DNA of 64,000 nucleotides from a virus: the IMG/VR virus record IMGVR_UViG_3300029319_000005, positions 6,402 through 70,401 of that record; one strand, 5' to 3'. Position numbers and translations under genes: made by a program. Below the pieces are notes generated by a model, which saw only the letters and a program-made list of their open reading frames with translations, had not been told where the DNA came from and made no database searches. The stretch's first letter is position 1. Every line of letters begins with the position of its first letter. Below are positions 34,281 through 45,064 of this stretch, piece by piece.

Positions 34281-36074
34281 TTACCCGAGTAGGTCTTCTA
34301 CAACGACAAGACCGTACATATCAGGACGTACCATCTTCTTGGCGTAACGGGTCATGACACCCTTACGTGGTACGAAATCTTCCGTACCAAAGATGGTCGG
34401 CGTGACCTGTAGCGGTACATACGGGGCATATACATAGCCACTCTCAAGGAAGCTTGATCCCTTGCGACCTACTAGAACCACGTTACGTGGGAAGTAAGGA
34501 TCGACATAAACATCAAACTTCTTGCTAAGGCTACCTACTCTTACAGCACCTGCGGTTCCTCTGTCATCATCATGCGTGACAGAAGCGCGGAATCCAGAAG
34601 TGAACTCCATGAGGTTAGCAACTTCAGGTGATACCACCACGAAGTTAGCGCCACCACGGAGAGTCTTTCTGTGGATTCTAGCGGAGACATCATTGATTGT
34701 CTCAATGAGCGTCTCGTACCACTCAGACACTGTACCCGTGAAGTCTGCACCAAGAAGTGCCTCGTTCTCGGTCGCGCCACCTGCGATGCCCGCACCAGTC
34801 TCGCGATCAACGAACTTACCAGGACGACGTGACCAGTATAGTGTACCAGCCGTCGAGCCCTTAACAAGATCTTCAAGAATCTCACGATCGATCTCTAGAG
34901 CGATGTGCTCAGAGAGAACCGAAGTAAGTTCAACCTCTGCATCAAGATTGTGATAAGCGTTGAGGTCCTGACCTAGCTCTGGAGTCCACTTGGCCTTGAG
35001 CTTCTTGGTCATCGCCGTGACACTTACGGAATCAACCTTGATGTCGATCTCAGGAATATCAACCTGATCTTCTAGTTGCCAGATTGTAGTAGCAGCAACC
35101 GCTCCAAGAGCGAGCCCATCAGCAGCAGGTGTACCACCGAAGTTGTCGGTAATCGGGAACGAAACAGCGTCAGCCGTAGAGCCTGTCACATCTCCGAGTA
35201 GGTTGCCAGCGCCGCCACCATTATCTAGGACCTGCGAGCCGGTTGCCTCAACAAGGAACGTCGCCTTCCATCCTGCATTGCCCGGTGCATAATCCCCGAC
35301 AGAACCCGAAGAAAGCTTGGTTGTGCGTCGAACCAATTGTCCGCCACCCGGTGTGATGTTCAAAGCAATTAGGTTTTCTACGTTAAGCTGGCTTAGCGCA
35401 GTGGCTCCAGTGACCTCACAAACAACAACCACAGAACCACTAAGGTCTGGGTCATGGTTTGCCATCTTGTCCAGCGTAGCCTGATCTGCGGCACTAAGTG
35501 GGTGCGGAGTGGTACCAGCGGTATTTCCAACAGTACCAGACGCAACTACAACGTAGCCTGCTCCTGCAAACGAGGTGGAACCTGTTGGAGAAGAGAAGCC
35601 GTTATTCAAGTTGTAAAAACTATCTTCGCCACTCTCACCAGTGAGGTTAACACCGCCAGTCAACGCCTGGCCGACAACGCCACCGCCATAAATGGAGTCA
35701 CCCCGCTCATAGGAAAGCCTCTGCGTCGCATTGTCATCAGAATAGGTGAAGTCCATGAAGAAAATGAGTCCCGAAGGAAGGCTCATTGGCTGAACCGATA
35801 CGAGATCATTAGCAATAAGTCCACCGAATACACGACGAACGATTGGGAATGCTACAGCAGCAAAACCCTCGACATCGCCTGCGCTCATTGCAGACGATTC
35901 TTTTAGTAATTGAGCAGCCTGGTTTTCAAGCAGACGTGCCATGTTGTTACGGGCGAGATCATTATCGATACCCTCTAGAAGACCGGTGTTTGACCACTTA
36001 TCAAGTAGTGCAGCACCTTCCTTCTGGACGTCACGATTAACGATGCCCTCAGTTAATGTTTCTAAAACAGACAT
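34281..36074 (-). CDS. gp23: Major capsid protein, gp23-like
   Basis: A 597-aa protein forming the head shell. The N-terminus (LLDKWSNTGLLEGI, ARLLENQAAQLLKE) matches the gp23 scaffold-binding segment. LKE at 57-59 fits the gp21 cleavage rule (L/I-x-E), close to the T4 site. IANDLVSVQPMSLPSGLIFFMDF (in two parts) is highly typical of gp23. An enlarged Gly- and Ser-rich region lies near 130-330. The C-terminus has YVYAPYVPLQVTPTIFG and a VLVGRKGSS segment, also family-typical. SD AGGAT precedes the ATG. Downstream lies a strong terminator. Confidence 0.95.
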   Translation of the reverse strand: MSVLETLTEGIVNRDVQKEGAALLDKWSNTGLLEGIDNDLARNNMARLLENQAAQLLKESSAMSAGDVEGFAAVAFPIVRRVFGGLIANDLVSVQPMSLPSGLIFFMDFTYSDDNATQRLSYERGDSIYGGGVVGQALTGGVNLTGESGEDSFYNLNNGFSSPTGSTSFAGAGYVVVASGTVGNTAGTTPHPLSAADQATLDKMANHDPDLSGSVVVVCEVTGATALSQLNVENLIALNITPGGGQLVRRTTKLSSGSVGDYAPGNAGWKATFLVEATGSQVLDNGGGAGNLLGDVTGSTADAVSFPITDNFGGTPAADGLALGAVAATTIWQLEDQVDIPEIDIKVDSVSVTAMTKKLKAKWTPELGQDLNAYHNLDAEVELTSVLSEHIALEIDREILEDLVKGSTAGTLYWSRRPGKFVDRETGAGIAGGATENEALLGADFTGTVSEWYETLIETINDVSARIHRKTLRGGANFVVVSPEVANLMEFTSGFRASVTHDDDRGTAGAVRVGSLSKKFDVYVDPYFPRNVVLVGRKGSSFLESGYVYAPYVPLQVTPTIFGTEDFVPRKGVMTRYAKKMVRPDMYGLVVVEDLLG

Positions 36075-36093: not shown

Positions 36094-37320
36094 TTATTTT
36101 TGTTTTAGTCCTGCTAATAGTTGCCAGCGTGTTACGGCTGGATCTACTTTGCTGTTTTGTCTTTTTGTTGCATTTCTGCTAGACATAACGTGAGTAGAAG
36201 ATCTATCAACGGCTTCGCTCAGTGATTTTGGCTGTTTCTTATCGGTGCTGCCCACTGCGCTCTGAAGTGTCTCAAAGATTACCTTTGCTTCTTCTACAGT
36301 ATTCGCATTTGAAATAGCTTCGACAATTCTATTCTTTTGTCGCTCATTCAAGGAGTCGCTAGTTAAAACGCGATTAGTGTAAAGGAGTTTGGCATTAGCT
36401 GCGTTCACTTCCTCTACATGTTCTTTTAAGGCTGCCACTGCTGTGGTCAGCTTTGTATTATGTTCCGTAAGACCTAAAATTGTCTCTTCAAGCTCTTTCT
36501 TGGCTTCCATCAATTCATCAAGCTCTTTGACTGCGTCTTTTGAAAGCTCTTCTTGCTCTTTTACTTCATCATCTTGCATACGAGCAAGAATTTTTTCGGC
36601 AGCAAACTTTTGATCCGATTGCGGGCGACCTGCCCAGCCACTCAGTACATCATCGACGTCAACAGTAAGCTTTTCTTCTAGAGCGTCAACAATCTCCTCT
36701 AGCTGTTCCTCTGACAAATCTACCTCTTCGTCAAGATCGTCTTGGTCATCATCGTCATCTGCCTCTTCTTCAAGCTTTTCTTTTGCGTCTTCGGCGGCGT
36801 CCTTCATGGGCTCTTCTTTGTCTCCGTCCTTATCGAGATCTAAAAAGTCAGGCTTTTCGCTAGCCTCATCTATACCAAGAATGCTGTTTATACTCTCTTG
36901 GAGATCTACGTCATCAAGATCTATCTCTCCTTCATCGTCTAAAAGCTCTTCTGCTGTGTCTTCAGCGTCAATCATCTCTCCAGGGTCCACCTGCTCATCA
37001 TCCATTTGCTTTGCTAGGTCATCAAAATCCAAGACAATTACTTCTTCCTCGTCCGGGCATGGGCACATGTCCTCGCCATCCGTTGCGGCGAGAGGCACAC
37101 TATCAACAACAGAGTCTTCCTCTGCTTCCATATCATCCATTCCGGTCAGATCAGTGTCTAAATCATCTAAGTCCATCTCATCTTCTTGCTCTAGTAGAGA
37201 TTTCATGGCTTCTTTTATTTCAGCCGAATACTTTTCAACTACAGCAGCTTCAGCATTTTTTAACGCTACCTCTTTTAAAGCAGCAGCATCAATAACTGCC
37301 TGTTCCAACATAGATGACAT
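36094..37320 (-). CDS. gp22: Prohead scaffold/core protein, gp22-like
   Basis: A 408-aa very acidic protein (long Glu- and Asp-rich runs, about 40-230), followed by a coiled-coil region (about 250-330) and a basic C-terminus with RNATKRQNSK and TRWQLLAGLKQK. This is the form of T4 gp22, which builds the prohead core and is later chopped by gp21. It lies directly upstream of gp23. The start chosen is the ATG at 37318-37320 with AGGAG 8 bases upstream. A GTG three codons earlier is less likely. Confidence 0.85.
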   Translation of the reverse strand: MSSMLEQAVIDAAALKEVALKNAEAAVVEKYSAEIKEAMKSLLEQEDEMDLDDLDTDLTGMDDMEAEEDSVVDSVPLAATDGEDMCPCPDEEEVIVLDFDDLAKQMDDEQVDPGEMIDAEDTAEELLDDEGEIDLDDVDLQESINSILGIDEASEKPDFLDLDKDGDKEEPMKDAAEDAKEKLEEEADDDDDQDDLDEEVDLSEEQLEEIVDALEEKLTVDVDDVLSGWAGRPQSDQKFAAEKILARMQDDEVKEQEELSKDAVKELDELMEAKKELEETILGLTEHNTKLTTAVAALKEHVEEVNAANAKLLYTNRVLTSDSLNERQKNRIVEAISNANTVEEAKVIFETLQSAVGSTDKKQPKSLSEAVDRSSTHVMSSRNATKRQNSKVDPAVTRWQLLAGLKQK

Positions 37321-37353
37321 ATTAAACACTCCTAAAATATTTTAAGTCACAAA

Positions 37354-37399: not shown

Positions 37400-37930
37400 T
37401 TAAGAGCTACCTGTCAACTCGCTAATTCCGGAACCAGTTAACTCGTACATTTCTCCTGGTTCGATAAGGGTTAATTCTGCTAATAATTGAAAACTAGCGC
37501 TATTATTTAAAGCACCATTGGCTATGTGTAACTTTCTAGTTTTAATGTCTAAAGTAATAGAATCATTCGTGTTTGGTAGCGTAATATAATGGTTTTGCCG
37601 GATTGCTCCATTTTGATTAGAGGGCGTTATGTGCGCCTCCGCGCCATCTCCAAAGTATACGTGGAGAACTCCATCACCCAATGTCGAGTTGTATTGACTG
37701 CCGGTATAATAATTCGTATTGATGATAGTTATGGTCTTAGTTACTTTTGGAAATTCAATTGTTTCAAAAGTTCCAATTGCCTGATCAGAAGCCATGCCGG
37801 AGCCCTTTATAGAGCCGTGCGACGCGGGAAGAAAAACTCCGCCGGTAAGGTACGGGTGACCGCTTACCTGGAAAGATCCAACATTCTGGATGCCCGCTTG
37901 GTAGCGCTTGAACATGTTATCATAAGCCAT
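37400..37930 (-). CDS. Unknown virion-cluster protein, beta-rich
   Basis: A 176-aa protein of unknown family, mostly beta-strand in prediction by eye: VSGHPYLTGGVFLPASHG, TKTITIINTNYYTGSQ, VLHVYFGDGAEAHI, SITLDIKTRKLHI and FQLLAELTLIEPGEMYEL. This looks like a single jelly-roll or Ig-like domain, perhaps a head decoration protein, given its place upstream of gp22 and gp23. AGGAGC precedes the ATG. The decoration role is inference only. Confidence 0.65.
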   Translation of the reverse strand: MAYDNMFKRYQAGIQNVGSFQVSGHPYLTGGVFLPASHGSIKGSGMASDQAIGTFETIEFPKVTKTITIINTNYYTGSQYNSTLGDGVLHVYFGDGAEAHITPSNQNGAIRQNHYITLPNTNDSITLDIKTRKLHIANGALNNSASFQLLAELTLIEPGEMYELTGSGISELTGSS

Positions 37931-37952: not shown

Positions 37953-38168
37953 TTAGTTCTTTCGTTTCTTTTCTGCTTTTCTAGCGTTATCTTTTTTGCG
38001 CTTCTTAGCGAGCCTTCTTTTCTTAGATGGTTTTGTAAAATACATTCTTTCTTTGTATTCTTCAACAACTCGCATTTTTTTTGCTTTCTTTATAAACTTT
38101 TTAATCATTCTAGTCACGTTGCCTTTGACTTCTTCTAGCGTGACCTCTACATGTATGGGACTCCCCAT
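37953..38168 (-). CDS. rpsU: Ribosomal protein bS21 homologue
   Basis: A 71-aa very basic protein. VEVTLEEVKGNVTRMIKKF, then IKKAKKMRVVEEYKERMYF and TKPSKKRRLAKKRKK, follows the bS21 layout: a short N-terminal strand, a basic first helix, an E-Y/L-K/R-R-E-x-Y/F-x-K-P turn and a Lys/Arg-rich second helix. In bacteria bS21 sits on the 30S subunit near the mRNA exit and anti-SD helix, and helps initiation. A phage copy could replace host bS21 and favour phage messages. It lies inside the head gene cluster with a strong SD (AGGAG, 6 bases). Such genes have been reported in a few phages; the placement in the head operon is unusual. Confidence 0.8.
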   Translation of the reverse strand: MGSPIHVEVTLEEVKGNVTRMIKKFIKKAKKMRVVEEYKERMYFTKPSKKRRLAKKRKKDNARKAEKKRKN

Positions 38169-38177
38169 TGTTAACTC

Positions 38178-38579
38178 CTAGATTAAATGCTTCCACTTGC
38201 CCTTGGCAAGCCCGACTATTCCATTGATATCCACGCCCTTGTCTCCTGGACTTACGCCAGCCAAAGGACCTTGTCCGTTAGACTCAGGAGCGGCAGGCTT
38301 GGTCCCTTCGAAGATATCAACACCAAACTGCTGTGAAGCGCTTTCATTTAGCCTTTTTATTCTTTCTTGTCTTTGTCTTTCATACTCTTCTTCAGCCATC
38401 TTTTGTTTCAAATCCTGCGCTTCTGGCTGGCTGCGGCTAGACTCTGTAATCGTATTAGCTGCTAATCCTTGAGCAACTTCCTTAATAATCCCAGAAAGAA
38501 CACCCTCTTCAAAAAGGCATTCTTTAATGCACTCTTTCACTAATGGTTTTAAAATTTGTTTTAGTTCACTTTTTTTCAT
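38178..38579 (-). CDS. Small head-cluster protein with amphipathic N-terminus
   Basis: A 133-aa protein beginning MKKSELKQILKPLVKECIKE, an amphipathic helix, with LFE just after it. The middle is charged (EEEYERQRQERIKRLNES) and the C-terminus is Pro- and Gly-rich (GQGPLAGVSPGDKG) then GIVGLAKGKWKHLI. Its ATG overlaps the upstream stop as TAATG. The N-terminal helix resembles those of two other small proteins here and the capsid-targeting peptides of T4 internal proteins. Function is inferred from position and this resemblance. Confidence 0.65.
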   Translation of the reverse strand: MKKSELKQILKPLVKECIKECLFEEGVLSGIIKEVAQGLAANTITESSRSQPEAQDLKQKMAEEEYERQRQERIKRLNESASQQFGVDIFEGTKPAAPESNGQGPLAGVSPGDKGVDINGIVGLAKGKWKHLI

Positions 38580-38821
38580 TATCGATCCATGTGTCTAAAT
38601 TGGAGCGCCAGTTCTTTTACTATCTGACTAGCGGTTTGTTGCAAGAGATCCGGGTCTCCCAATGCATCTTTTAGTCGGTTATGAATGCTAGCAAGATCAT
38701 CATGTCGGACCTTCATAGCGCGGTCATACCCTGCCGCGTCGGCTTTTTTCTTACCGAACATATCAATCTCCTCTAGCTGGTTTATCTCTTCGCTTATTAT
38801 TTCATTAATAGATTCTTTCAT
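38579..38821 (-). CDS. Small protein after prohead protease
   Basis: An 80-aa protein with an acidic, helical N-terminus (MKESINEIISEEINQLEEID) and a helical C-terminus ending QIVKELALQFRHMDR. TAATG overlaps join it to gp21 upstream and to the 133-aa gene downstream, so it is part of a tight head operon. It may be a core or internal head protein, like T4 gp67/gp68, but no sequence similarity is clear. Confidence 0.55.
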   Translation of the reverse strand: MKESINEIISEEINQLEEIDMFGKKKADAAGYDRAMKVRHDDLASIHNRLKDALGDPDLLQQTASQIVKELALQFRHMDR

Positions 38822-39462
38822 TATATGTTGTCTCCCAAGATATCATCTAGAGTTTCGTTGATTATATCTTTTTTAGATTTATCTTTTTGTTCGTTTATAT
38901 ATAAGTTCAAATCGGCCACTTTGGGATCGCTCATAGTGGGATTTAGGTAAGCACCGGGGGTAGAAGGTTCCGAAACAATATCGAAACAGATAAGCTGGAA
39001 ATCATCCTCCACCATCGTCACTCCGTTGGATTCGCTTACAGAGCCGAGGCCTCTAGAAGAGATCCCCAGTTTTACGCCGGAATTTAATAGCGCTTTTAAA
39101 ACGTTACCAGACGGGGTATCGAGAACTTCAATCTTGCCCATAACATCATCACCTTTCCACCACATTTTTGTCACTAAATGTGATGCATTTTTTAAATTGA
39201 TAACACTGTCGTCGGGGTGATCAAGCTCGCCCAATGCTCGTTTCTCACGGATCGCCTTTTGGTAAGCATCTATTTCTCTTTGCAAAGTTTCTTTTTTATA
39301 AATTCTTCCATTGCCATTTTTTGTGCCTGCTTTCTGGCACACACCTACCAAGTACACAGATCCGTTATCCATGTTTTTAATTTCAGTTTCAGTCAATGTT
39401 TCTACGGCGCAAAGACCATCGGGACATAGCTGAAAATACTCTTGTAAAAGTTTTTTTGCCAT
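38821..39462 (-). CDS. gp21: Prohead core protease, gp21-like
   Basis: A 213-aa maturation protease that cleaves capsid and core proteins at L/I-x-E sites. GELDHP holds catalytic H82, and KLGISSRGLGS (131-141) holds the nucleophile serine (S135/S136). QKAGTKNGNGRIYKKETL matches the NGRxY motif of the family, and FDIVSEPSTPGAYL matches the end of the core. The C-terminal 40 residues are charged and probably removed. The length is as for T4 gp21. Confidence 0.93.
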   Translation of the reverse strand: MAKKLLQEYFQLCPDGLCAVETLTETEIKNMDNGSVYLVGVCQKAGTKNGNGRIYKKETLQREIDAYQKAIREKRALGELDHPDDSVINLKNASHLVTKMWWKGDDVMGKIEVLDTPSGNVLKALLNSGVKLGISSRGLGSVSESNGVTMVEDDFQLICFDIVSEPSTPGAYLNPTMSDPKVADLNLYINEQKDKSKKDIINETLDDILGDNI

Positions 39463-40696: not shown

Positions 40697-41516
40697 CTTT
40701 CTGTAGCTCTCTAACCAATTTTTGTATTTTTAATATCTTTTCTACCGATTTCTCATCGATCTTTTTTTCTCTAAAAGACTCAACAAATTCTAGCACACGC
40801 TCTGTCTTATCTAGCATCTCAGGGCTAGTCTCTATTTCTTCTAGGTCCCTAGCGTTCTTTATTTCTTCCTTTAGTCTACCAAGCTCTTCATTTAAAAATA
40901 TTTTAAATTCAATCCCATTGTCAACGAACGAAGTAATGTAATTACTTAATAAACTCCGCTGCTCCTCAAAGAGCTTTTCAGAGTACTCAGAATTAAATTT
41001 ATTAATAAAGTTTTTAAGAACTAAAGTGTCCGAAGGTAGTTTATTTGTAACTGTCTTCGCTCTATCCACTATTCCTTCTAGCAGACTGTTTTCCAACAAG
41101 ACTCTGTTTTTTGGAGACATCTCTTGATTAAAGATCTGGTATGCAGAGGCAAGGCTTTTATAATTTGGAACAAAATTAGAAAACACATCCTTTGACAATA
41201 TTTTATTAATCTTGTTTATAACCCTACTCTGTTCTTTAAATATTTCTTCTTTATCCAAAAAGCTATACTGTCTTTTTGTTTCTTGCAATACCTTTTCAGC
41301 GGTTCCCATAGAGTCAAAAGAATCTTCTTCAACTAATGACTGGTATAGCTTTAATTCCCTTCCTAAGACAGAATCAGACTTAAAATGTTCTTTTATAATA
41401 GCAGCAATTTTCTTTTTCTTGCCAGTGTTCTTCTTCATCACGCTCTTAGTCATCTCTTTTACTAAAGCTTCAAAAATAAATGCAGTATTTCTTTTCTTAT
41501 TATGTCTCAATTTCAT
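40686..41516 (-). CDS. Helical head-cluster protein downstream of portal
   Basis: A 276-aa protein. The start MKLRHNKKRNTAFIFEALVKE recalls conserved proteins of marine T4-like phages. The remainder is mostly long helices with coiled-coil character (SLLEGIVDRAKTVTNKL, EERLKEEIKNARDLEEI-type, ETSPEMLDKTERVLEFVE, KSVEKILKIQKLVREL). The ATG overlaps the portal stop as ATGA. A prohead core or assembly role is inferred from the position between gp20 and gp21. Confidence 0.6.
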   Translation of the reverse strand: MKLRHNKKRNTAFIFEALVKEMTKSVMKKNTGKKKKIAAIIKEHFKSDSVLGRELKLYQSLVEEDSFDSMGTAEKVLQETKRQYSFLDKEEIFKEQSRVINKINKILSKDVFSNFVPNYKSLASAYQIFNQEMSPKNRVLLENSLLEGIVDRAKTVTNKLPSDTLVLKNFINKFNSEYSEKLFEEQRSLLSNYITSFVDNGIEFKIFLNEELGRLKEEIKNARDLEEIETSPEMLDKTERVLEFVESFREKKIDEKSVEKILKIQKLVRELQKDVN

Positions 41517-43486
41517 TGTATTTCCGATTCCTTTTTAGACGAAAGCCCTTCTAGAAGCTGCTTTATATCTTCAGTAGTCTCAAATATTTTATTCTCTTCC
41601 TTAATATAAGTAGCTTCTAAACCTTCGGAAAGTCTTGTCATTCCTAACAAGTCACTATGCCCTTTAAAAAGATTAGACTTCGAAGAGCTAGCTAGCCGAC
41701 TCCCTCCAGATGACTTCCATGTGTTAGAGCGACCAGCCATACTCCTTTGGTTTACTTGTCCGCTACCCTTTTGTCCTCTTCTAATATATACTTTACCTTT
41801 AGAAGAGATAGTCTCTTCATCATCTCTTTTTGCTGGTGGCTCATCGGCTGGCGGTTCTGCGAGGAGGGTGCCTGCGTCTGCCTCTTCTGCTGGTGCCTCT
41901 GCCTCACCTTCTATGCCCTCTTCCTCTCCGCCCAGAAGATCGCCCAATTCATCTCCTGCGCCACCGAAGGCTCCACCCAGATCTCCACCAGCGTCTCCTA
42001 GTCCTTCTAGGCCTCCGCCCTGCTCTGCCACTTCTTGTGAAGCTACTTCAAGAGATGCTTCAAACTTCTTATCAAAGAACATCTCTCTCTGCATTCTGGT
42101 TAATTCTTCTTCCGCCAGTCCAAATAGATGTTCTGAAATCCATCTTTTACTAAAGTATCCATCAGTTGCGCCATTTGCGACGTCAAATTTTGTTCTCCAT
42201 TGCTCAAGCTCTTGTAGTTCTGCTATCTTAGAGGGATTATTTAACTGTAGTTCGAAAGATATCAAATCCGACCCTCTATAACCAAGTGTGTACAGATGAA
42301 TAATTCCTAATTTTTCTAATTCAGAAATGACAGATCTTTGTAGCCTTTGAATAGTCCTAGCAAACCGAATATCCTTTTGCGCCAATGTGGTCTTGTCTTC
42401 CCCCGAGCCTTCATCAGAATTAGATAGATAAGAAGCGGGTATCTTTAGAGCAGAAAAAAGCTTATCTCTTAAATATTTTACATCATCAATGTCCCCAGTG
42501 TAGGTTCCACCCGGCAATGTCTCAATTTTAGAAGAGGTATCTCCTCTTACTGGAATAAAGTAGTCTTCTTCTGTGCTGAGCGGGTTATACCTAAGATCCA
42601 CACGCCCACTGCCAGAGTCAACAAGTTGATTTCTCTTCATTTGAGTCATTACTTTTTGCATGTACTGCTCGATATCTTGGGGTGCAATGCTACCAACGTC
42701 AATATAGAACACTCTTCTCTCAGGAGATCTAACAATTCTATAAGCCATCATAGCATCTTCTAACAACATTAGCTGTCGCCAGATTCTTCTCGCAGGATCC
42801 AACACACTAGTTCCGTATGGTGTAAACTTATCATTCCCTAAAATTCTAAAATGACAAATTTGCCAATTTTCAAAAGTCATGCCTCCGGAGTTCCATTGGT
42901 ATTGAATATAATTCGGATTCGTCTTATCTTCGCCTTCTAATCTCTCGATCTCGCCAACGGGCAACGCTATAGTATTTTTAATTCCGACCTTCTCATCAAG
43001 ATCTAAGTAAAGAAAGAAGTCGCCATATTTGCACATGGTTCTGCACCATCCAAAAAGACTAAACTCTATATTCAACACATCATTGTACAAAGTGCTCAAG
43101 ATGCCTTTGATTTCTTCATTATGTGTCTTAATCCTTAACATTGGATGAAAAGTATTAGATGTAGTCATCTCATCGGCGTATATGTCTAATGCCGACGCAA
43201 TTTCTGGTGTGTATTCCATTTGATCAAAGTCTACGTATCTATCAAGCCTACTTTGTGTTGACATGAAGTCAAGCTGTAAGGACTCATAAGGGTTTACGTT
43301 TGATTTCTTAAATTGCTGCCCTGACGCTGAGGTGAACTTATACTTGTCTAGTTGCCTTCTTTTATTTCTTCTCGGAGCTTGTCTTCTCCTATCTACGACT
43401 GGGCCGGATAAAAGTCGGGTAAGTCTCTTAAACAACTCACTGGCTGTGTTTCTTGGGTTGTTGCTTTTTGTATTCTTTGTAACCAT
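41513..43486 (-). CDS. gp20: Portal protein, gp20-like
   Basis: A 657-aa head vertex portal. DRYVDFDQMEYTPEIASALDIYADE and YGDFFLYLDLDEKVGIKNTIALP are typical of gp20. FRILGNDKFTPYGTSVLDPAR, RIVRSPERRVFYIDVGS and NPLSTEEDYFIPVRG follow, matching the wing and stem of the family. The C-terminal 140 residues add a Gly/Glu/Ala-rich linker (about 495-570) and a basic, Ser-rich region not seen in T4 gp20 (524 aa), ending in KQLLEGLSSK. SD AAAGGAT precedes the ATG. Confidence 0.93.
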   Translation of the reverse strand: MVTKNTKSNNPRNTASELFKRLTRLLSGPVVDRRRQAPRRNKRRQLDKYKFTSASGQQFKKSNVNPYESLQLDFMSTQSRLDRYVDFDQMEYTPEIASALDIYADEMTTSNTFHPMLRIKTHNEEIKGILSTLYNDVLNIEFSLFGWCRTMCKYGDFFLYLDLDEKVGIKNTIALPVGEIERLEGEDKTNPNYIQYQWNSGGMTFENWQICHFRILGNDKFTPYGTSVLDPARRIWRQLMLLEDAMMAYRIVRSPERRVFYIDVGSIAPQDIEQYMQKVMTQMKRNQLVDSGSGRVDLRYNPLSTEEDYFIPVRGDTSSKIETLPGGTYTGDIDDVKYLRDKLFSALKIPASYLSNSDEGSGEDKTTLAQKDIRFARTIQRLQRSVISELEKLGIIHLYTLGYRGSDLISFELQLNNPSKIAELQELEQWRTKFDVANGATDGYFSKRWISEHLFGLAEEELTRMQREMFFDKKFEASLEVASQEVAEQGGGLEGLGDAGGDLGGAFGGAGDELGDLLGGEEEGIEGEAEAPAEEADAGTLLAEPPADEPPAKRDDEETISSKGKVYIRRGQKGSGQVNQRSMAGRSNTWKSSGGSRLASSSKSNLFKGHSDLLGMTRLSEGLEATYIKEENKIFETTEDIKQLLEGLSSKKESEIQ

Positions 43487-43489
43487 TTT

Positions 43490-45064
43490 TTATCCTTTCA
43501 AGATCCATCCAAAGTTTTGATACTGCTCTTTTGCTGCTTGATCTTTTATCGGCTTGTGACCGATCATGCCAGGAATTGTTGTATTCATTTTAGTATCTGC
43601 CCTAGACATCGCGCTTAAAAACGCCTTTTGATATTCGCCCTCTCTAACATTTGTAATAAAAACAGAATCTCTTATCCAGCAGCCGATCGCACAAGCCATA
43701 ATCAAATCGTCATTAAATCCCTTCATTGCCTGGGCTCTTCCATTCTGCCACACAAACGTCTTCATTTCATTATACAACCTATTGGAGTTTATTTTAATTA
43801 GTTTATTCCTTATGAATTCCTCAAACTTAGCTATAACAAGCGGCCTTGTTGTTCTAGACATTGTAAAACCACCAATTGTATTCCTGGAAGACTCAGCAAC
43901 AGTCGCGTCAACAAATTCGTGACTAGTCTTTTTTGCATAATAAAGATTGGGATAAGCCATTTCTTGAAGCTTAGTGATAACGGTCCAACCTACGGAGTTG
44001 TTCTCTACTGCCAGCAAGCAATTGCCATATTCTTTACCAATATTAAAAAGAACATTAGCAAAGACATCAGGCGTAGGCTTGCCTCGATATTCTGCAACTA
44101 TCTCCATCGTATCAACTTTAAAAATATGAAAAGCAGAATGATCTTTTCCGTCTCCCCTTGCTACGTCTGCCGACAACAGGTACTGCTGGGATTCATCGAA
44201 CTCTTCCCATATCCAGATATTCCTATCAAATCCTGTTCTATATTTTGGCTCACAAACTCTGTCATGTATTAAAGCCATGTCTTGTGCATCAAAAACTGTT
44301 TCTCCCGACATGTTGAAGTTACACATTAGCTCTTGAGCAATCTGCCGTGGGGACATGTTTTTAGTTTCTTCTCGGAACCAATTATCGTTTCTGTCAGGAT
44401 GCACGTCCCAAGGCAAAGTCACAGAATGGAATTTGTTTTTCTTTTCCTCTGCCTCTATAAAGGTCTGATGGAACCAATTTCCAACCCCGTTCGGTGTTGA
44501 CAGAGCTATGCATCGACCACCAGTTGAAAGAGTGGGATATAGGCCAGTCCAAAGCTCTTCCAAGCCCTCGACGTGCGCAGCCTCATCAATGACTAAAAGA
44601 GACAGTGCTTCCGATCGACCAGCATCACTACTTGTAGACGACGCTTTAATTTGCGATCCATTAGATAATTCAAAAGATGTTCTGTTATCTACCGCAATAT
44701 CAGTGATCATTATCCAAGGCGGGAGGTTCTTGATCATATGCTTTACTTTCTTAACTAAGTTAGCTGCCGTGCCAAATTTAGTTGCAATGACAAGAATGTT
44801 CTTATCTTTATGAAACATCATTAGCCATACAATATAGGCCGCTGTAATCGTTGAAATGCCTAACTGCCTAGCCTTTAAGATCACATTGAATCTGTAATCA
44901 TTAAAATCTCTAAGCAAGTCTTCTTGATAGTCAAAAACTTTAAACGGAATAAGACCCTTCATTGGATGAGAGATCTTTGCATAATTATTAATAAAGTATA
45001 TCGGGTCTTTGCCTGCTTTGACTATTTCAGCAACTACCTGTTTCTTCGTTAACTCGTGTGACAT
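43490..45064 (-). CDS. gp17: Large terminase subunit, gp17-like
   Basis: A 524-aa packaging motor ATPase and nuclease. The Walker A-type ARQLGIST is at 65-72, and Walker B LLVIDEAAH is at 156-164. The coupling motif STPNG is at 189-193. The RNase H-like nuclease has the acidic residues D300 (SADVARGDG) and E354 (AVENN) and a later FNDDLIMACAIGCW. The Walker A is atypical in having I-S-T for K-T/S, as in some terminases where the lysine lies elsewhere (here K64). It directly precedes the portal gene, as usual. Confidence 0.93.
   Translation of the reverse strand: MSHELTKKQVVAEIVKAGKDPIYFINNYAKISHPMKGLIPFKVFDYQEDLLRDFNDYRFNVILKARQLGISTITAAYIVWLMMFHKDKNILVIATKFGTAANLVKKVKHMIKNLPPWIMITDIAVDNRTSFELSNGSQIKASSTSSDAGRSEALSLLVIDEAAHVEGLEELWTGLYPTLSTGGRCIALSTPNGVGNWFHQTFIEAEEKKNKFHSVTLPWDVHPDRNDNWFREETKNMSPRQIAQELMCNFNMSGETVFDAQDMALIHDRVCEPKYRTGFDRNIWIWEEFDESQQYLLSADVARGDGKDHSAFHIFKVDTMEIVAEYRGKPTPDVFANVLFNIGKEYGNCLLAVENNSVGWTVITKLQEMAYPNLYYAKKTSHEFVDATVAESSRNTIGGFTMSRTTRPLVIAKFEEFIRNKLIKINSNRLYNEMKTFVWQNGRAQAMKGFNDDLIMACAIGCWIRDSVFITNVREGEYQKAFLSAMSRADTKMNTTIPGMIGHKPIKDQAAKEQYQNFGWILKG

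Follow-up and report, generated by a model that had tools for sequence, protein, structure and literature searches.

A ribosomal protein bS21 gene held in a fixed, co-oriented slot of a T4-like phage head gene cluster, and its association with Shine-Dalgarno use

In this study, we report that the window (the whole stretch of DNA analysed here, 64,000 nucleotides of a 147,376-base virus record) carries a homologue of ribosomal protein bS21 within a T4-like head gene cluster, and that throughout its clade this gene keeps the same slot and the same strand. It evolves under purifying selection, and the phages that carry it place Shine-Dalgarno (SD) motifs ahead of their genes. The fixed co-oriented slot and the association with SD use are what is new here. 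No other ribosomal protein is as common in viruses as bS21, which is known from 1,310 genomes and contigs (PMC6375957).

The window protein, the single bS21 match in the record, is strongly basic, with 19 Lys and 8 Arg (27/71 residues) and a pI of 10.7. A sequence-only reading had taken it for bS21, an identification that is now well supported by profiles, family comparison, PDB matches and shuffles. Taken singly, the protein stays under the curated cut-offs of the HMMs (20.9 bits and E=2.9e-4 against PF01165, whose cut-off is 27 bits; 18.5 bits and E=1.3e-3 against TIGR00030, whose cut-off is 28.95), and it matches PHROG 21469 ‘ribosomal protein S21’ with E=4.5e-3. Its family, however, gives a significant result: PF01165 is matched by all 36 members (best 2.5e-16), several of which pass the cut-off, and a profile of these 36 members retrieved 39 sequences from the PDB, each of them a bacterial, plastid or mitochondrial bS21 (best 3.5e-14). 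As a Lys/Arg-rich sequence can mislead, composition was tested by shuffling: against a profile of relatives, from which the window protein and its nearest relatives had been left out, the protein scored 74.5 bits and the best of 20,000 shuffles 13.3. This profile being built of phage relatives, the test shows membership of the phage family; that this family is related to bS21 follows from the matches above.

The conserved positions of the family are those of bS21 (F25, K28, K30 and KPS 46-48). In bacteria, bS21 (rpsU; E. coli, F. johnsoniae) probably has the same fold, and it shares the conserved K/R-F...KP(S/T) core, at 26-36% identity to the window protein over the aligned part. The AlphaFold2 model is all-helical (helices 18-32, 34-42 and 47-70; pLDDT 84, pTM 0.55), and its four Foldseek matches in the PDB, although weak (best probability 0.60, E=0.37), are all bS21 chains. 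A tblastn search of phage records with the window bS21 gave no match. Among close relatives, differences are almost all synonymous (dN/dS 0.025-0.05, rough ratios given that dS is near saturation), which indicates strong purifying selection. Judged by its sequence, the window protein is a diverged bS21.

A basic protein derived from bS21 could instead have become part of the virion or of the scaffold core, where it would bind DNA inside the head and play no part in the ribosome, and the position in a head cluster, the high Lys/Arg content and the length of 71 aa would all suit such a protein. Yet composition alone cannot give the match, as the shuffles show, and opposite-strand copies in other phages lie outside the head transcript. 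A packaged protein is very improbable because the positions that are conserved are of the bS21 type and because the gene has been lost in close sister phages that have the same head genes.

The genes of the head cluster are listed in Table 1. The prohead protease gene lies upstream of bS21 (at higher coordinates), the scaffold-like and capsid genes lie downstream, and several small genes are found between portal and protease. The place of bS21 in a head operon, proposed from the sequence, is well supported; the acidic protein is probably a scaffold, judging by its position and composition. Gaps of 9 and 22 nt separate bS21 from its same-strand neighbours. bS21 is one of a series of closely packed head genes, so it should be transcribed together with them and, by gene order and by analogy, probably late. 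In related phages, head-linked bS21 genes were found to be highly transcribed together with the capsid gene (Chen 2022, PMC9723584). The T4 late promoter TATAAATA occurs 7 times in the window, with 5.3 expected, and not once in the head cluster; scans for sigma-70 promoters and terminators stayed at chance level. The 133-aa gene precedes bS21 in almost all relatives of the window clade, usually directly, and its product is a possible partner.

Table 1. Head cluster features around the bS21 gene (window coordinates)
Feature	Position	Strand	Basis
Large terminase (gp17-like)	43490..45064	minus	45% identity over 97% to Flavobacterium phage immuto terminase
Portal protein (gp20-like)	41513..43486	minus	in synteny with the immuto gene annotated as Gp20-like
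Prohead core serine protease (gp21 type)	38821..39462	minus	PF03420 4.7e-32, PHROG 207 1e-59
80-aa gene without assigned function	38579..38821	minus	ORF
133-aa gene directly upstream of bS21	38178..38579	minus	no Pfam match
Shine-Dalgarno AGGAG	38175..38179	minus	6 nt ahead of bS21 ATG; overlaps stop codon of upstream gene
Phage bS21 gene (71 aa)	37953..38168	minus	PF01165, TIGR00030 and PHROG 21469 matches, family profile, shuffles, dN/dS
176-aa gene directly downstream of bS21	37400..37930	minus	ORF; comparison with relatives
Scaffold-like acidic protein	36094..37329	minus	no Pfam match; precedes capsid gene in relatives too
Major capsid protein (gp23 type)	34281..36074	minus	PF07068 1.1e-74, PHROG 138 1.3e-70

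Relatives were fetched by capsid similarity, regardless of bS21, and counted only if their contig spans protease to capsid. Co-oriented bS21 was found in 24/24 relatives of the window phage. Among those of Microcystis phage Mel-JY01, 37 of 49 have it, and among those of Flavobacterium phage immuto, 4 of 56. Every one of the 73 co-oriented copies is located between the protease and capsid genes. In two further contigs (L027, L046), bS21 is on the same strand and further upstream, at positions derived from contig ranges. The gene does not appear to have moved elsewhere in phages that lack it: PF01165 found no match anywhere in 18 viral records of the bS21-less group (including records of 162, 183 and 297 kb) or in the complete immuto genome (160 kb), a search that diverged copies could escape.

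A second arrangement was retrieved with F. johnsoniae bS21 as query. Here bS21 lies between portal and protease, with the head genes on the other strand, in agreement with the description given by Chen et al. 2022 (PMC9723584), and these loci have nearly no SD motifs; the window phage, in contrast, has its copy in the protease-capsid slot and is SD-rich. At the position of F. johnsoniae Tyr54, the opposite-strand proteins mostly have Tyr and the window protein Asp, in a C-terminal helix whose alignment is only moderately certain. An aromatic residue at this position was considered as a predictor of SD use and rejected, many co-oriented phages of the Tyr/Phe type being SD-rich. The opposite-strand genes (L269-L291) have no SD ahead of them. 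In this they are unlike rpsU of many Flavobacteriales, where an extended SD is used for autoregulation (PMC9976891), and so may escape that control. An extended SD of the Flavobacteriales rpsU kind was also seen before the bS21 gene of one locus (L313).

The start of the window bS21 gene had been noted for its strong SD. The AGGAG is there, with a 6-nt spacing, and is also kept in close relatives (L002-L006), but it is nothing special for this phage, in which 35 of the 55 window genes have an SD-type motif against a background of 8%; the idea of a distinctive signal was dropped. SD motifs (GGAG, AGGA or GAGG) were counted upstream of ATG-started ORFs of at least 80 codons, with a per-locus background of 4-11% in the loci examined; starts were called crudely, as the first ATG, which lowers all counts. 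Pooled loci with co-oriented bS21 have such motifs ahead of 582/1039 genes (56%), loci without bS21 ahead of 94/839 (11%) and loci with opposite-strand bS21 ahead of 4/109 (4%).

A Mann-Whitney comparison of bS21 and SD use across loci gives p=2.5e-22, a value that overstates the case because the loci are related. On the capsid tree (141 rows), the bS21 state changes about 4 times and SD use about 6 times. Independent pairs, 2 on well-supported branches and 4 in all, are concordant in direction, with rare exceptions among random pairings, and are too few for significance in a sign test. Individual exceptions are found on both sides: L126 and L008 carry bS21 and have almost no SD motifs, and L296, conversely, lacks bS21 and has SD motifs. 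Two further loci without bS21 (L195, L249) have intermediate SD counts on few genes. The association agrees with an action of bS21 at the anti-SD end of the 16S rRNA, as far as few independent changes allow.

With only about 4 such changes behind it, the association may also be explained by host lineage. In that case, bS21 would be ancestral in the slot, of general benefit to translation and lost on moves to SD-blind, Bacteroidota-like hosts, its link to SDs being indirect. The few tree changes and the sharing of both states by whole clades speak for this, and the two isolates fit: bS21-less immuto, with SD motifs ahead of 0/21 genes, infects Flavobacterium, whose ribosomes are blind to SDs (PMC9976891), and bS21-carrying Mel-JY01 infects Microcystis. 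However, other phages of SD-blind hosts retain bS21, of the opposite-strand type, and the host labels are mixed, one Flavobacteriales MAG (NAT55) holding phage contigs of both types; MAG labels are unreliable here. We regard this host-lineage reading as improbable. For the window phage itself, SD-richness argues against an SD-blind Bacteroidota host. Its nearest host-labelled relative, a contig in an Acidiferrobacteraceae MAG, has bS21 in the slot and SDs ahead of 11/15 genes, and the labels of the 17 MAG loci found by a capsid-alignment genome scan are too mixed for naming a host.

Bacterial bS21 is important for initiation and lies on the 30S platform, close to the anti-SD end of the 16S rRNA (PMC9723584, PMC9976891). 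We propose that the phage protein, made late, would bind the host 30S platform beside the 16S rRNA 3′ end, where it would replace or supplement host bS21, which is loosely bound, and might favour SD-dependent initiation on SD-bearing late phage messages at peak capsid output. The part of this proposal that concerns the choice of start sites on late messages, also put forward in the sequence-only reading, is an inference drawn from studies of bS21 in other phages (PMC9723584; PMC6375957). That late-made bS21 enters the host 30S and supports SD-led initiation on late phage messages is, in our judgement, evenly balanced between right and wrong. In its favour we count the bS21 homology, the 9- and 22-nt gaps, the fixed slot, the SD association, the bS21-less relatives without a copy elsewhere, and the data on Pelagibacter phage HTVC008M and of Chen et al.; against it, the few tree changes, the three exceptional loci L126, L008 and L296, the low activity of HTVC008M bS21 ribosomes and the lack of a T4-type late promoter in the cluster.

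The strongest rival is non-selective. Once host genes are shut off, phage bS21 might do no more than keep the host's ribosomes complete, without favouring the messages of the phage. bS21 is loosely bound and exchangeable (Mizuno 2019, PMC6375957), demand for it would peak during head-gene expression, and the bS21-less sister phages indicate that the gene is dispensable in some hosts. Replenishment alone would not lead one to expect the association with SD use, unless host lineage explains the latter, and we judge replenishment to be a serious but unlikely account.

Alternatively, phage bS21 could inactivate host ribosomes or stop the reading of host messages. HTVC008M bS21 enters E. coli ribosomes, and those ribosomes are nearly inactive in extracts, at about 5% (Mizuno 2019, PMC6375957). 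According to the same authors, however, this loss of activity may reflect a species mismatch. Furthermore, the window gene is grouped with late genes, whose products the phage has to get translated, and a shut-off function is in our view highly unlikely.

A more general form of the preferred reading, in which late-made bS21 supports SD-led initiation, can be proposed tentatively, although we lean against it: co-oriented head-slot bS21 would be a core late gene tied to SD initiation, kept together with SDs and otherwise lost or replaced by an opposite-strand copy of the Tyr54 type, because the phage protein would set the anti-SD use of the infected ribosome. The clade with a fixed head-operon bS21 and its close sisters without the gene and without SDs offer a natural comparison for anti-SD reprogramming, framed by two isolates, Mel-JY01 on Microcystis (with bS21) and immuto on Flavobacterium (without). 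In huge phages, SD use was related to a phage ribosomal protein S1, and not to S21 (PMC7162821).

The head operon context, which the sequence-only reading had singled out, is real and only partly new. Viral bS21 genes are already known, as is their clustering with head genes since 2022: the freshwater Bacteroidetes phages of Chen et al. 2022 (PMC9723584), for which a part in translation late in infection was proposed, have bS21 in the neighbourhood of TerL, portal, protease and capsid genes as the window does. Their bS21, however, is on the strand opposite to the structural genes, whereas the window and the 73 loci of its type are co-oriented. The co-oriented slot is itself present in the GenBank record of Mel-JY01 (PP395634; RpsU, WWT39311), an SD-using phage in which bS21 lies, as in the window, between the prohead protease and the scaffold/capsid genes of a T4-like cluster, on the same strand. 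Its host, in contrast, is cyanobacterial and its bS21 only about 34% identical to that of the window; no publication on Mel-JY01 was found in the literature searched. Pelagibacter phage HTVC008M and the pelagimyophages are also myoviruses with a phage bS21 (PMC6375957; PMC7029224), and the pelagimyophage S21 was reported outside any cluster (PMC7029224). The fixed co-oriented slot across this clade, with its SD association, was not found in the literature searched, which consisted of open-access journal articles, and Figure 3 of Mizuno et al. may show some of these contigs.

Other translation genes accompany bS21 in the phage record. No tRNA gene was found within the window, and the record holds a single tRNA-Thr (tgt; L107:11714-11787, minus strand). 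A one-piece tmRNA (RF00023, 125.9 bits) lies outside the window on the minus strand (G000:C1:132028-132337; L108:3129-3438), so that the clade brings two parts of the translation machinery, bS21 and tmRNA. The window phage tmRNA encodes the tag ANDNVAFDYALAA, and those of two relatives ANDNVTFDYALAA and ANDNVEVDYALAA. The tags of MAG chromosomes (ANDDNYALAA) differ from that of the phage, and no host can be derived from them. Finally, three other phages of the group (L321, L322, L323) have tmRNAs whose tags, for instance DEMSTMTFEDLMSFVGADYALAA, are unusually long at 23-25 residues.
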